Notes under the pieces: generated by a model | What the model saw: the letters and a program-made list of their open reading frames with translations, nothing else | Databases searched by the model: none | What the model was told of the DNA's origin: nothing | Made by a program: the position numbers and the translations under genes | Shown here: piece after piece, positions 11,465 to 59,994 of the stretch | Layout: each line of letters begins with the position of its first letter | How positions within the stretch are numbered: the first letter of the stretch is position 1 | Origin: Chloroflexota bacterium | GTDB taxonomy: Bacteria; Chloroflexota; Anaerolineae; Anaerolineales; Villigracilaceae | Length of the DNA: 61,667 nt | Assembly (NCBI GenBank): GCA_024434165.1 | Contig: QMIW01000010.1 | Span: 1 to 61,667 of the forward strand | Direction: 5' to 3'

Positions 11465-11486
11465 TCTCTCTCTCTCTCTCTCTCTC
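11465..11486. repeat. (TC)11 dinucleotide microsatellite
   Basis: Eleven TC units lie 17 bp after the glpK stop, just before its terminator. Such a tract can change length by slippage, but no coding sequence is affected. Confidence 0.9.
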
Positions 11487-17198: not shown

Positions 17199-17212
17199 TG
17201 GGTGTTATCGCA

Positions 17213-17247
17213 AATCATCAATCATCAAATCCCAAATTGTAAATCGT
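17213..17247. repeat. Heptamer tandem repeat abutting a start codon
   Basis: Five consecutive heptamers fill the gap exactly up to the ATG at 17248: AATCATC, AATCATC, AAATCCC, AAATTGT, AAATCGT. The last units could also act as a weak -10 region. Confidence 0.6.
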
Positions 17248-18327: not shown

Positions 18328-18373
18328 TCACCGACCATTGACGGCAGACGGCAGACCGTCAAGCACCATCCAC

Positions 18374-18394
18374 GGTCCATCGTCCATTGTCCAT
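18374..18394. repeat. Heptamer tandem repeat (NGTCCAT)3
   Basis: Three adjacent units: GGTCCAT, CGTCCAT, TGTCCAT, ending 7 bp before the next start codon. The unit family is shared with 20134-20161 and, inverted, with 28032-28052. Confidence 0.6.
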
Positions 18395-18401
18395 CTTCTT
18401 T

Positions 18402-20133: not shown

Positions 20134-20161
20134 TCCATCGTCCGTTGTCAATCGCCCATCG
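20134..20161. repeat. Heptamer tandem repeat (TCCATCG-type)4
   Basis: Four units, TCCATCG, TCCGTTG, TCAATCG and CCCATCG, fill most of the gap between two convergent genes. Confidence 0.6.
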
Positions 20162-21983: not shown

Positions 21984-21988
21984 GGGGA

Positions 21989-22030
21989 GGTTGAAGGTTA
22001 AAGATTGAAGGTTGAAGGTTGAAGGTTATA
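21989..22030. repeat. Heptamer tandem repeat (GGTTGAA)6
   Basis: Six contiguous heptamers with consensus GGTTGAA run from 21989 to 22030, directly upstream of the DUF92 start. Related degenerate units (CAACCTG, TTCAACC in inverted sense) continue to about 22080, so the region may fold on itself. Confidence 0.7.
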
Positions 22031-22092
22031 AGGTTAAGGGTTGGGGTGAAGGTTTTCCAACTTTCAACCTGTTACCTGCAACCTGTAACTTA

Positions 22093-26448: not shown

Positions 26449-26455
26449 GGAAGCA

Positions 26456-26461
26456 ATTTTA
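26456..26461 (-). promoter_or_regulatory. -10 box (TAAAAT), leaderless start of bactofilin gene
   Basis: On the minus strand TAAAAT ends 7 nt before the ATG at 26448. Confidence 0.5.
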
Positions 26462-26512
26462 CCGTTAAACCAAAAGGGCGGGTTGCGCCCCAAAACCGCA
26501 GCCCGCCCCTCC

Positions 26513-26552
26513 AATTCTCCAATCCTCAATTACTCAATTACCAATCCCCCCA
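26513..26552. repeat. Octamer-like tandem repeat (CAATTCTC type)
   Basis: CAATTCTC, CAATCCTC, AATTACTC and AATTACCA follow each other between the bactofilin promoter and the fabI stop. The array resembles the heptamer arrays elsewhere but with an 8-bp period. Confidence 0.45.
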
Positions 26553-26553
26553 A

Positions 26554-28022: not shown

Positions 28023-28031
28023 TTGCGACGA

Positions 28032-28052
28032 CGATGGACGGCGGACCATTGG
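28032..28052. repeat. Short heptamer-type repeat (CGATGGA)
   Basis: CGATGGA, CGGCGGA and CCATTGGA lie in the mpg/epimerase gap. They are the reverse complement of the TCCATCG units at 18374 and 20134. Confidence 0.45.
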
Positions 28053-28060
28053 ACGGTCTG

Positions 28061-51608: not shown

Positions 51609-51648
51609 TCTGCGCCGCTCGTAACGAGAAATTTATTTTGCGCGACCT

Positions 51649-51738
<90 letters not shown>

Positions 51739-51769
51739 GTGAAATACGTCCGTAAGGGCGTATTTTTGT
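51739..51769 (+). terminator. Terminator of tRNA-Ser
   Basis: AATACGTCC-GTAA-GGGCGTATT forms a stem followed by TTTTG. An almost identical copy lies at 51909-51939. Confidence 0.8.
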
Positions 51770-51775
51770 TCCCCC

Positions 51776-51945
51776 CGCGCGCCTCCATTGAGGAGGTGGT
51801 ATTCGAATCCCTCTCTCCGCTAGAGTCTGACGATTTTGTCGGACTCTTTTCTTTTCCACCGCGCGCCTCCATTGAGGAGGTGATATTCGAATTCCTCCCT
51901 CTCCGCCAGTGAAATACGTCCGCAAGGGCGTATTTTTGTTCCCCC
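51776..51945 (+). repeat. Tandem copies of the tRNA-Ser 3' end and terminator
   Basis: Two downstream units repeat parts of tRNA-Ser. Both start with CGCGCGCCTCCATTGAGGAG (51776 and 51860, offset 84 bp) and continue with TATTCGAATYCCTC. The second ends in CTCCCTCTCCGCCA, as the true tRNA does, and then in the same AATACGTCC terminator (offset 170 bp from the original). The first has CTCTCTCCGC and its own hairpin GAGTCTGACGATTTTGTCGG (51824-51847). No full tRNA can be formed from either. Confidence 0.8.
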
Positions 51946-56208: not shown

Positions 56209-56584
56209 TACCTCCGCTGTCCTTACCTTGATCGAAGACGAGCCCGGAGCAAACCGTGTGAAACAAATCTTTTCACAAAAGAACGTTTTGCTGCCCTGGG
56301 TGGTCCTCATGGAAATCTATTACATGACGTTGTATGAGAAAGGCGGGGAAGAAGCGGAAATTCGGTTTGCAATGCTGCGTCACTCCACGGCTGAAATCGT
56401 TTGGGAAATGAACGAAGTCGTCACCCTTCGAGCAGCTAAGATAAAATCTGGAAACAAATTGTCCTTCTCCGACGCTGTAATTGCCTCGATTGCCGTGCAC
56501 CATGGCGCGGTACTGGTACACAAAGACCCGGAATACGAACAATTGAAGGATGAGCTTCAATTGGAAGCCTTACCATATAAATGA
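56183..56584 (+). CDS. vapC: PIN-domain ribonuclease toxin (VapC type)
   Basis: A 133-residue PIN-domain toxin. The acidic catalytic residues are present: LLDTSAVLTLIEDEPG (Asp), LMEIYYMTLYEKGG (Glu), LSFSDAVIASIAV (Asp) and LVHKDPEYEQLKDE (Asp). VapC enzymes cleave tRNA or rRNA. The start at 56183 lies in the vapB reading region. Its stop overlaps the nadE start (ATGA), so nadE translation is coupled to the toxin. Confidence 0.88.
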   Translation: MSEEKFLLDTSAVLTLIEDEPGANRVKQIFSQKNVLLPWVVLMEIYYMTLYEKGGEEAEIRFAMLRHSTAEIVWEMNEVVTLRAAKIKSGNKLSFSDAVIASIAVHHGAVLVHKDPEYEQLKDELQLEALPYK

Positions 56585-57405
56585 CTATCAACCTCTCCAT
56601 CAACACCGACCTCGCGCGCGACATCCTTACCGGTTTCATCAAATCCGAGATCGCGCGCGTGGGCATGTCCCGCGCCATTGTCAACCTTTCGGGCGGCTTG
56701 GATTCGGCGCTCTCCTGCGCGCTGGCAGTGAAAGCCCTCGGCGCGGAAAACGTCATCGCCCTGCGCTTGCCATACCGCACCTCCTCGCCCGACTCGCTCG
56801 AACACGCCCAACTGCTGATTGACCAGCTCGGCATCCAAAGCAAAACCATCGAAATCACCGGGATGGTCGAGCCGCTCTTCAAACTCGACCCCGAAATCTC
56901 AAAAGTCCGCAAGGGCAACATCATGGCGCGGGCGCGGATGATCGTTCTCTACGACCAGTCGGAAGTATTCAAGGCGCTGCCCGTCGGCACGAGCAACAAG
57001 ACCGAAATCCTGCTTGGCTACAGCACGCTCCACGGCGATTCTGCCAGCGCGATCAACCCAATCGGCGACCTTTATAAAACGCAGGTGCGTCAACTTTCGC
57101 GCGCCATGAATATCCCTGCGCCCATCATTGACAAGCCGCCCTCCGCCGATTTGTGGGAAGGTCAAACCGACGAAGGCGAACTCGGCTTCACCTACGAAGA
57201 AGTGGACAAACTCCTCCACCTTTTGGTGGACCAGCGTTATAGTCCGCAGGAGGCGGTGGAGGCGGGCTTCGACGAAAAATTCGTCAACACTGTCATCGCG
57301 CGCATCCGCCGCAACCAGTTCAAGCGTATGCTCCCGCCGATTGCAAAGATCAGCAACCGCACCATCGGCTACGACTTCTTATATCTCCGCGACTGGGGAA
57401 CTTAA
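56581..57405 (+). CDS. nadE: NAD synthetase
   Basis: Amidates nicotinate adenine dinucleotide to NAD. The 274-residue protein is the synthetase domain only, with the ATP pyrophosphatase loop VNLSGGLDSALSCALA (residues about 33-48), RKGNIMARARMIVLYDQS, GTSNKTEILLGYSTLHGD and PSADLWEGQTDEGELG. This short form normally uses ammonia, but a glutaminase-like gene lies just upstream of vapBC. It is translationally coupled to vapC by an ATGA overlap. Confidence 0.94.
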   Translation: MTINLSINTDLARDILTGFIKSEIARVGMSRAIVNLSGGLDSALSCALAVKALGAENVIALRLPYRTSSPDSLEHAQLLIDQLGIQSKTIEITGMVEPLFKLDPEISKVRKGNIMARARMIVLYDQSEVFKALPVGTSNKTEILLGYSTLHGDSASAINPIGDLYKTQVRQLSRAMNIPAPIIDKPPSADLWEGQTDEGELGFTYEEVDKLLHLLVDQRYSPQEAVEAGFDEKFVNTVIARIRRNQFKRMLPPIAKISNRTIGYDFLYLRDWGT

Positions 57406-57469
57406 CCAGTAATCCGTGGGCAGTGATCAGTAATAGGCACACTGAATCACTGCACTGATCACTGCACTG

Positions 57470-57511
57470 ATCACTGATAACTGATCACTGATAACAGATC
57501 ACTGATAACTG
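57470..57511. repeat. Heptamer tandem repeat (ATMACTG)6
   Basis: Exactly six heptamers: ATCACTG, ATAACTG, ATCACTG, ATAACAG, ATCACTG, ATAACTG. Looser copies reach back to 57411 and forward to 57521, filling the gap between nadE and the MFS gene up to the ATG at 57522. Confidence 0.85.
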
Positions 57512-57521
57512 ACTCACTGAA

Positions 57522-58763
57522 ATGCACATCCCGCCTTCGCTCAAACACAAAAAATTCTTCTATCTCTGGCTCGGGCAACTCATCTCCATCACCGGCACGC
57601 AGATGCAATTGTGGGCGTTGTTCTGGCATGTCAACCAACTGGACGATAACCCAATCGCCCTCGGCGGCATCGGCGTAGCGCGCATCCTGCCCGTCATCAT
57701 CTTTTCGTTGATCGGCGGCGCGCTCGCGGATTCGATGGACCGGCGCAAGGTGATGTTTGCCACGCAATCCATTGCCGCGCTTCTCGCCCTGACGTTGGGG
57801 CTGCTCACCCAATTTGGGCATGTCACCATCTGGCACATTTACTTCATTACCGCTCTGCAGGCGGTTGTGGTCGCCTTCGATGGTCCCTCCCGCCAGGCGT
57901 TGATTCCCAACCTTTTGCCAAAAAAAGACCTGCCCAATGCCTTCAGCATGACCTTCACCTCTTTTCAAGCCGGCTCGGTGCTGGGACCCGCCCTGAGCGG
58001 CGTAGTCATTGCCTCGTTTGGGCAGGAGGCGGTTTACTACATCAACGCGGTCTCGTTCGCGGCGGTGCTTCTTGCGCTGGCATTGATCGGGAACGTGCCG
58101 CAGACCATCGCCGAAAAATCGGCGGGAATCAGCATGGACGCCATCGGCGACGGGATTCGTTTCATTCTTTCCAAGCCCATCATCTTTTCGACGATGATGC
58201 TCGATTTCGTCGCCACCTTTTTCGCCTCCGCCAATACGCTGATGCCAATCATTGCCAGGGAGGTGCTGAAGGTGGGGGTGGTGGAATACGGCTATCTTTC
58301 CGCGGCTTCGGCGGTGGGAGCGGTAGCGGTAGCGGTGGTCATTTCGCAGGTGAAGGAACTCCGCAGGCAGGGTATGCTCTTTCTTGGCTCGGTCATCGTC
58401 TTTGGGGCTGCGACCGTCGTCTTCGGTCTGACCCGGTCTTTCATCGTGGCGTGGACTGCGATTGCAATTACCGGCGCGGCGGATGGGGTCAGCACGATCA
58501 TCCGCAACACCATTCGCCAGCTGCAGACCCCCGACCACATTCGCGGACGGATGACCAGCATCAACCAGATTTTCTTCCAGGGCGGACCGCAGCTGGGCGA
58601 GATCGAGGCGGGCGTGGTGGCGCAGTTGTTCGGCGCGCCGTTTGCCATCGTGAGCGGCGGAATCGGCTGCATTCTCGGCACGTTGTGGATCGTCTGGAAG
58701 TGGCCCCAGTTGAAGACCTACAACGGCGACGAGCCGATGCTGGCAGGCGCAACAGCGGATTGA
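57522..58763 (+). CDS. MFS transporter (EntS/MFS_3 type)
   Basis: A 413-residue major facilitator with about 12 membrane helices. Family marks are FFYLWLGQLISITGTQMQLWAL, the loop-2/3 basic motif GALADSMDRRKVM, FDGPSRQALIPNLLPKK and DGVSTIIRNTIRQLQTPDHIRGRM (shown in parts). It belongs to the MFS_3 group that includes the enterobactin exporter EntS; the substrate is unknown and no siderophore genes are here. Confidence 0.85.
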   Translation: MHIPPSLKHKKFFYLWLGQLISITGTQMQLWALFWHVNQLDDNPIALGGIGVARILPVIIFSLIGGALADSMDRRKVMFATQSIAALLALTLGLLTQFGHVTIWHIYFITALQAVVVAFDGPSRQALIPNLLPKKDLPNAFSMTFTSFQAGSVLGPALSGVVIASFGQEAVYYINAVSFAAVLLALALIGNVPQTIAEKSAGISMDAIGDGIRFILSKPIIFSTMMLDFVATFFASANTLMPIIAREVLKVGVVEYGYLSAASAVGAVAVAVVISQVKELRRQGMLFLGSVIVFGAATVVFGLTRSFIVAWTAIAITGAADGVSTIIRNTIRQLQTPDHIRGRMTSINQIFFQGGPQLGEIEAGVVAQLFGAPFAIVSGGIGCILGTLWIVWKWPQLKTYNGDEPMLAGATAD

Positions 58764-59658: not shown

Positions 59659-59966
59659 TCGGGTTCGACGGTGAAGCGAAGCGGATAACCTTCCATGCGC
59701 GCGGCTTCGTGGGCGCGATCCGCCCGCCTCTGCGCCTCGGACTTGGGCAGGGTCTGTACGTACGCCGAGCCTTTGATGTGCGCCGTGAGCATGATCTCCG
59801 CCGCGCGGTCGTTGCCGAGGAAAAATATCTGCTTCAATACTTCCACGACAAAATTCATCGGCGTCACATCGTCGTTATGGACGACCACCGTGTAAAGGGG
59901 TTCAAGATCGGCGTCCGTCTCTTCGTTAACCTGAATTTCGGGCAGGGCATGTAATAATCCTTCCAT
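59655..59966 (-). CDS. clpS: ATP-dependent Clp protease adaptor ClpS
   Basis: Delivers N-degron proteins to ClpA/ClpC. The 103-residue protein has a disordered N-terminus of about 22 residues and the ClpS core: PLYTVVVHNDDVTPMNFVVEVL (HNDDVTPM is the N-degron pocket, with the DD gate), FFLGNDRAAEIMLTAHIKGSA and a final strand YPLRFTVEPE. Length is usual. It shares a coupled unit with the acyltransferase gene. No clpA/C is in the window. Confidence 0.93.
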   Translation of the reverse strand: MEGLLHALPEIQVNEETDADLEPLYTVVVHNDDVTPMNFVVEVLKQIFFLGNDRAAEIMLTAHIKGSAYVQTLPKSEAQRRADRAHEAARMEGYPLRFTVEPE

Positions 59967-59994
59967 TTTCCACTTTCCACTTTCTACTTTCCAA
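59967..59994. repeat. Heptamer tandem repeat (TTTCCAC)4
   Basis: Four exact 7-bp units: TTTCCAC, TTTCCAC, TTTCTAC, TTTCCAA. The array fills the gap before the clpS start and reaches into the last codons of the aldo/keto reductase gene. Confidence 0.75.

Follow-up and report, generated by a model that had tools for sequence, protein, structure and literature searches.

In the survey of long simple sequence repeats (LSSR) by Mrazek et al. (2007), units of 7 nt were over-represented in many genomes, for which polymerase slippage has been proposed, and the dominance of heptamers among the longer bacterial simple repeats has stood as an open remark since then (PMC4679880, PMC4692102). Repeats of the word TAACTGA occur in Cyanobacteria, Beggiatoaceae and Bacteroidetes, where they are intergenic, patchily distributed and, between Cyanothece strains, subject to 7-nt indels (PMC4679880). 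In BOGUAY they mostly end a few nucleotides before a start codon, mostly without a ribosome binding site; one word dominates, related heptamers are seldom repeated and one inverted repeat is given for 170 sets, whereas a range of mixed heptamers has been described for M. aeruginosa (PMC4679880). The GGGAATC and GGGGA(C/T)T repeats of Xanthomonas and Nostoc are heptameric and mostly non-coding, their length and sequence differ among close species and inverted repeats are mentioned; in each organism the words are essentially of a single G4-forming type, and arrays of four units are preferred (PMC4692102). Within the Chloroflexota, 22 (GATAGRA)n heptamer satellites of a single word have been reported to be scattered over the genome of Chloroflexus aurantiacus (PMC6749651), and oligopurine runs are over-represented in Chloroflexus and Roseiflexus (PMC4060949). 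Tandem repeats of other unit lengths that arise fast and independently have been described for Borgs (PMC9879509). In the literature searched we found no paper on intergenic tandem repeats of Anaerolineae.

The arrays analyzed in this work share with these systems the excess of 7-nt units, the mostly intergenic location, the dispersal over the genome and the variation among close relatives, and one of their words, ACTGATA, is a rotation of TAACTGA. They behave like the cyanobacterial STRR, from which they differ by taxon, the host not being a filamentous cyanobacterium. Unlike those of BOGUAY, they use many words, carry inverted arms and show turnover of words; M. aeruginosa, with its mixed heptamers, is nearer to them. 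No single heptamer is favoured, several word clusters being present in the genome studied. Most words, inspected by eye, lack the runs of three G or three C that distinguish the Xanthomonas and Nostoc repeats, an exception being a CTATCCC array in contig C25 (3096-3142). The many words also set them apart from the one word of C. aurantiacus. Chloroflexus is placed in a different class of the Chloroflexota. The sequence-only reading (made by a model from the letters alone) was not aware of such a system in the phylum; heptamers are already known there, and the present arrays are a multi-word, partly inverted variant of heptanucleotide simple repeats.

The window, i.e. the whole stretch of 61,667 nt that was analyzed, is one contig of a 4.4-Mb draft genome (173 contigs), the closest named relatives of which in protein searches are Anaerolineales/Chloroflexi MAGs. 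Tandem repeats were called by TRF with a minimum score of 30, and each listed place was also inspected. Heptamers in perfect register over 3-6 copies had been claimed for at least six gaps. Period-7 calls in five of the named gaps (17213, 18340/18375, 21988/22066, 57440 and 59961) confirm that the arrays are real; the units at 20134 and 28032 are degenerate and were not called, and the perfect register was overstated, since the longer arrays reach only 74-88% matches. The strongest period-7 arrays of the named gaps are 57440-57520 and 21988-22054. The former, of which the stretch first singled out (57470-57511) is the central part, lies in the gap (57406-57521) between the NAD synthase gene (56581-57405) and a gene for an MFS transporter (MFS_3; 57522-58763). 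It consists of direct CACTGAT/ACTGATA units on the + strand (TRF period 7, score 88, 11.9 copies, 76% matches), with ACTGATA-type units intermixed with ACTGATC; its part 57454-57520 is also called at period 14 (4.9 copies, 89% matches, score 97). As in the TAACTGA repeats, the direct units come close to the start codon, the last base lying one nucleotide short of the MFS ATG. The array forms the main, right arm of a fold of the gap in which it is complementary to a short left arm, cagtgatcagtaa (57421-57433, + strand), that looks fuller by eye in the sister genome G306.

The second gap (21984-22092) is laid out alike on the - strand: a G-word arm of AGGTTGC/AGGTAAC/AGGTTGA (22057-22089; TRF 22066-22089, AACCTGT, 3.4 copies, 76% matches) follows directly upon the stop of the upstream gene and pairs with a C-word arm of AACCTTC units (21988-22054; TRF AGGTTGA, 9.7 copies, 74% matches) adjoining the start of a DUF92 gene. 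Both arms at 18328-18401 lie on the + strand, the left one, GACCATTGACGGCAGACGGCAGACCGTC (18333-18360; TRF 18340-18356, GACGGCA, 2.4 copies), downstream of a ketopantoate reductase-like gene and the right one, of GTCCATC units (18369-18398, recognized by TRF and fold; TRF 18375-18395, 3.0 copies, 85% matches), upstream of a uridine kinase-like gene. A degenerate AATCATC/AATCGTA array (17207-17246, + strand; TRF 17213-17228, AATCATC, 2.3 copies) reaches a start codon, and a TTCCACT array (59961-59993, - strand; TRF 4.7 copies, 88% matches) spans the narrow junction between the end of an aldo/keto reductase gene and the start of ClpS, both on the - strand, overlapping the latter. The 8-bp version noted near 26513 is present in two TRF rows (26509-26531 and 26525-26545) that make up a mixed 7/8-bp array of CTCCAATT/CTCAATTA (26509-26545) beside a GC-rich hairpin. 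This hairpin, together with the motif ACGGTAAAATT upstream of the next gene (26449-26553), recurs in many relatives independently of arrays. Degenerate GTCCATC-like units were recognized by eye, with no TRF call, in the convergent gap at 20134-20161 (+ strand) and in the short gap 28023-28060 (- strand), the orthologues of which in loci L059, L071 and L097 look like hairpins by eye. Two further period-7 TRF rows (10115 and 18088) sit within called ORFs.

Many arrays have a complementary second arm, and several gaps fold into imperfect hairpins in which the left arm is short and the right arm long. Compared with shuffled sequences the folds reach z = -4.88 at 21984-22092, -3.84 at 57406-57521 and -1.94 at 18328-18401; no hairpin fold was found at 17199-17247, at the 59961-59993 array or at loci L061 and L068. 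Inverted partners with a score of at least 10 were found upstream of 14/64 arrays (4.6% in swapped controls) and downstream of 4/64 (1.4%). At least nine opposite-strand pairs of ACTGAT no more than 150 bp apart occur among the matches listed, all with the reverse word first. Arrays are more frequent in co-directional gaps (64 in 1,272) than in gaps of other orientations (10 in 408; p = 0.026). The polarity rests on the co-directional gaps, the convergent and divergent ones holding too few arrays: G exceeds C in 23 arrays of the left half of the gap and C exceeds G in 8, as against 7 and 36 in the right half (p = 7.3e-7). G-rich words therefore lie near the upstream stop and C-rich words near the next start, and G/C skew is absent from the 1,174 array-free co-directional gaps. 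An overall strand bias of the arrays was considered and dropped, being not significant (C>G 38 vs G>C 25, p = 0.13), so that the signal is a position-dependent polarity. The heptamers of Xanthomonas and Nostoc have the same polarity, with the G-strand on the coding strand downstream of ORFs and the C-strand upstream (PMC4692102).

A 7-bp peak in the periods of the whole genome had been proposed as a check, and it was found. The sample of the genome studied comprised 764 kb of the 4.4 Mb, or 760 kb (759,883 bp) after removal of two N stretches, and five of its contigs had surfaced in an earlier ACTGAT search. Lags 7, 14 and 21 stand well above the others: exact lag runs of at least 12 in the 764 kb number 15, 14, 8 and 9 at lags 7, 14, 21 and 28, and 2-5 at the remaining lags; the N stretches contribute a baseline of 2. 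With a score of at least 12 (759,883 bp), gaps hold 14 lag-7 segments and called ORFs 12; a first-order Markov shuffle gave none, lags 5, 9, 11 and 13 gave none and lag 8 gave six; with a score of at least 10 the counts are 43 for period 7 (3 in the shuffle), 15 for period 6, 12 for period 8, 10 for period 9 and 4 for period 5. TRF gave 49 intergenic period-7 rows and 25 in called ORFs, the next most frequent intergenic periods being 12 (27 rows) and 14 (21 rows). Since genes were called by a crude home-made codon scorer, some "coding" arrays are probably located in false ORFs. The 1,680 gaps of 15-600 bp pooled from 115 sequences hold 86 arrays of period 7, 25 of period 8, 8 of period 9 and 1 of period 5, and per base the arrays are strongly enriched there, as claimed from the window: the 86 arrays fall in 241 kb of intergenic DNA, compared with 62 in 3.2 Mb of called genes.

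The idea that each gap has its own consensus could not be upheld. Among 39 arrays of the genome studied (4 of 43 were dropped for low complexity) there are 19 pairs with identical words, compared with a mean of 1.1 and a maximum of 4 for a null of random intergenic 7-mers, and 66 pairs with no more than one differing base (15.9 under the null, with a maximum of 28). The frequent words are ACTGATC, GTCCATC (listed as ACGATGG), AACCTTC and AAATCGT. The named loci (52 arrays) and genome G080 (22 arrays) share words in a similar way, and the 6 arrays of G064 show no clear difference from the null. Loci that are not linked draw on one small set of words.

Within the family the ACTGATN word is common, and in the rest of the phylum it is rare: ACTGATNACTGATNACTG matched 76/120 genomes of the Villigracilaceae (reversed control 3/120) and 23/301 genomes of the phylum (reversed control 5/301), i.e. 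13 of the family's 18 and 10 of the 283 outside it. For AACCTNN, AACCTNNAACCTNNAACCT was found in 61/120 family genomes and its reversed control in 31/120 (counted by eye), a control that is not neutral, since reversal yields another word of the same set. The density of arrays within the genus, measured in stretches of 100-760 kb, ranges from 0 to 208 per Mb (57 in the genome studied, 208 in G080, 30 in G005); stretches of 100-112 kb from G112 and G297 hold none, and G112 carries arrays elsewhere. G168, of the same order and another family, appeared array-rich at first sight; 12 of its 13 hits came from one 20-kb stretch, L152, with words like AGCTACC, and after exclusion of L152 from the later pooled set a single hit was left, so G168 is not used for any claim.

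Changes in length were followed in three pairs of species (G112/G337, G304/G339 and the genome studied with G306), about 52 kb each. The window and G306 mostly share 85-93% nucleotide identity, with synteny over much of the window, and 34 of 42 gaps are comparable. The gaps measure 74 vs 89 nt at 18328-18401, where the right arm of G306 holds about two extra units, 109 vs 89 nt at 21984-22092 and 49 vs 6 nt at 17199-17247, where G306 lacks the array 17207-17246. In the first two the change lies in the right arms, 15 nt or about two units in one and 20 nt or about three units in the other, and the left arms are the same or differ by one base. The gap 26449-26553 is rewritten in G306 with CCAATTC-like units. 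Array-free gaps of this pair keep their length in many cases, not in all, and some differ by other sequence. Changes by whole units were seen between closer relatives: 14, 14 and 7 nt between arrays of G339 and G304 (about 95.7% identity) and, by eye, six vs four CACCTGA-like units (14 nt) in an orthologous array of G337 and G112, at about 2% divergence; no indels of 7 or 14 were found in the aligned 52 kb of G112/G337. The three pairs also include arrays of unchanged length and changes of 12 (G304/G339), 15 and 20 nt (the genome studied/G306). Several unit-multiple changes between sisters agree with the slippage-type mechanism suggested for the arrays, and those that are not multiples of 7 fit it less well.

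Words are replaced at orthologous gaps. Several species carry different words at the gap corresponding to 21984-22092 (GGTCGAA, GGTTGAA, AGGTTTG) in the same layout, and others among the 22 gaps printed are without clear heptads. In a pairing test the left half of each gap was paired with its own right half and compared with the median of swapped halves, arms not being drawn; it covered gaps of 35-260 nt in at least 8 species, including those without clear heptads. Own halves pair better in 16/16 species at 21984-22092, 23/36 at 18328-18401, 12/17 at 28023-28060, 17/26 at 17199-17247 and 16/18 at 26449-26553, a gap which contains a GC-rich hairpin; array-free gaps gave 7/11, 5/10 and 6/13, and the overall total is 102/147. 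The covariation of arms is strong at one gap, 21984-22092, and weak at the others.

The origin of an array could be followed between the NAD synthase and MFS genes, which are neighbours in 29/30 loci of the genus (the window included). The gap, measured from the last sense codon, has 5-14 nt in 9/29 genomes; by eye, heptads of differing words fill it in the genome studied, G306, G345, G308, G337 and G339, weaker heptads in G304, G328 and G302, and other sequence in 11 genomes. Most array-bearing rows of the MFS tree fall in one ten-row clade, with G328 and G337 outside it, and G337 stands next to G112, which has no array (support 99/87). G112 and G005 share homologous 85 nt in this gap, and G337 has a 70-nt CACCTGA hairpin instead (stop codon counted). 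Identity between G337 and G112 is 0.92-1.00 per 150 columns outside two blocks at the gap and 0.739 in the block that contains it. In G337 the array has thus replaced an older spacer between species about 98% identical, with neither gene broken, and both hairpin arms were gained. No target duplication was seen by eye in this one dated case. Within G337 itself the best other match of the insert reaches 80% over 54 query nt, and the best in G112 85% over 53 query nt, the best matches elsewhere spanning both arms. In a second case (CCAATTA)4 of G304 stands against unrelated sequence in G339, which may reflect a gain in the one or a loss in the other; no second exact copy of the 21-mer was found in the genome of G304. 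Copying from another array of the same genome was considered, and a close donor was found for neither birth; both newborn arrays are built of words present elsewhere in the genus. The inverted arms as a rule, the polarity, the turnover of words at orthologous gaps and the births by replacement had all been missed by the sequence-only reading.

We regard the arrays as probably being unstable, fast-turnover heptanucleotide simple repeats of the LSSR/STRR/TAACTGA kind, produced by 7-nt slippage combined with inverted template switching. Slippage in replication or repair, with a preferred step of 7 nt, would make the arrays grow and shrink, template switching to the complementary strand would create and refresh the inverted arm, point mutation would erode the units, and selection would purge gene-breaking arrays and G-rich, ribosome-binding-like words before the start codon; with these processes together a dedicated function would not be needed. 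This explanation is less easily reconciled with the complementarity of arms in all 16 species at one gap, a hint that the hairpin is selected for or actively renewed, and with the vocabulary, since purely local slippage predicts a random word per locus and sharing goes far beyond the null. The same sharing at unlinked loci makes it improbable that slippage is purely local, each array being seeded by seven nucleotides of its own gap such as the last four bases and stop codon of the upstream gene. Words that by eye extend the gene end in register (CACCTGA in G345, AACTTGA/AACCTGA in G308, AACCTGA in G339) and arrays of L055 and L058 that repeat the local leader word TAAATCG speak for such seeding; the array of G337, however, adjoins an unlike gene end (AACGTAA), and the in-phase match to the gene end amounts to 2.76 of 7 positions vs 1.61-2.20 at shifted phases (n = 51), so the upstream stop codon is weakly supported as a general seed. 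The common vocabulary would be expected if two-armed arrays were mobile or copied hairpin units, carried to new gaps by ectopic gene conversion or by some enzyme, and the simultaneous appearance of both arms in G337, with a best match elsewhere that spans both, points the same way. We nevertheless give this little credence, as a high-identity donor within the same genome and a target duplication (by eye, in the single dated case) were not found, and arms and unit numbers vary freely among loci.

That the arrays are kept as a functional leader or intercistronic RNA, whose hairpin or C-rich right arm would govern how well the downstream mRNA is translated or how long it lasts, seems to us rather unlikely; a similar proposal has been made for the TAACTGA repeats of Beggiatoaceae (PMC4679880). 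A Shine-Dalgarno (SD)-like motif is present in 1/27 C-type arrays abutting a start and in 573/1,049 array-free gaps (p = 2.6e-8), an absence due in part to composition alone. In the size range of 40-200 nt, array-bearing gaps have better folds than array-free ones relative to shuffles (p = 0.027), the mean z being -2.52 for C-type arrays (n = 46), -1.89 for G-type or tie (n = 28) and -1.55 without array (n = 114, a random 15% sample). The bias to co-directional gaps and the complementarity that outlasts a change of words, clear at one gap, agree with a function as well. Against it, several arrays form no hairpin, array-free relatives exist at the NAD synthase/MFS gap, and the 10 proteins encoded next to arrays of the window come from diverse families. 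Rfam at gathering score gave no RNA-family match in the whole window except one tRNA (51649-51735). A hairpin bridging stop and start as a coupling device was also considered; the end-to-end distance is not below that of shuffles (C-type p = 0.14, G-type 0.88).

Slippage with template switching remains in our opinion the likeliest engine, and further study is best directed at the polarity and the vocabulary held in common. With many species, datable births, a vocabulary and a polarity at hand, slippage, template switching and selection on leaders become separable by counting, and the spacer between neighbouring genes proves to be rewritable within about 2% divergence. It is a long shot that a family-specific activity writes two-armed 7-nt arrays of limited vocabulary into co-directional gaps, replacing the spacer in one step with no recognizable donor in the genome; if so, heptamers of distant phyla, with their TAACTGA word and G-left/C-right polarity, would reflect one shared process and not independent slippage.

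Some minor observations concern other repeats. At 11465-11486 a convergent gap holds (TC)11, which is much shorter in G306, so a dinucleotide repeat varies too, and short local repeats beside the tRNA (51648-51945) give three overlapping matches to one place of G306. The uridine kinase-like gene of locus L091 (10001-11971) is broken by an N run and a duplicated stretch, probably a scaffolding artefact. Around position 1500 of L282/L283 a short TGACACC array lies, by eye, seemingly in frame within a gene of G337, G112 and, in diverged form, G005.
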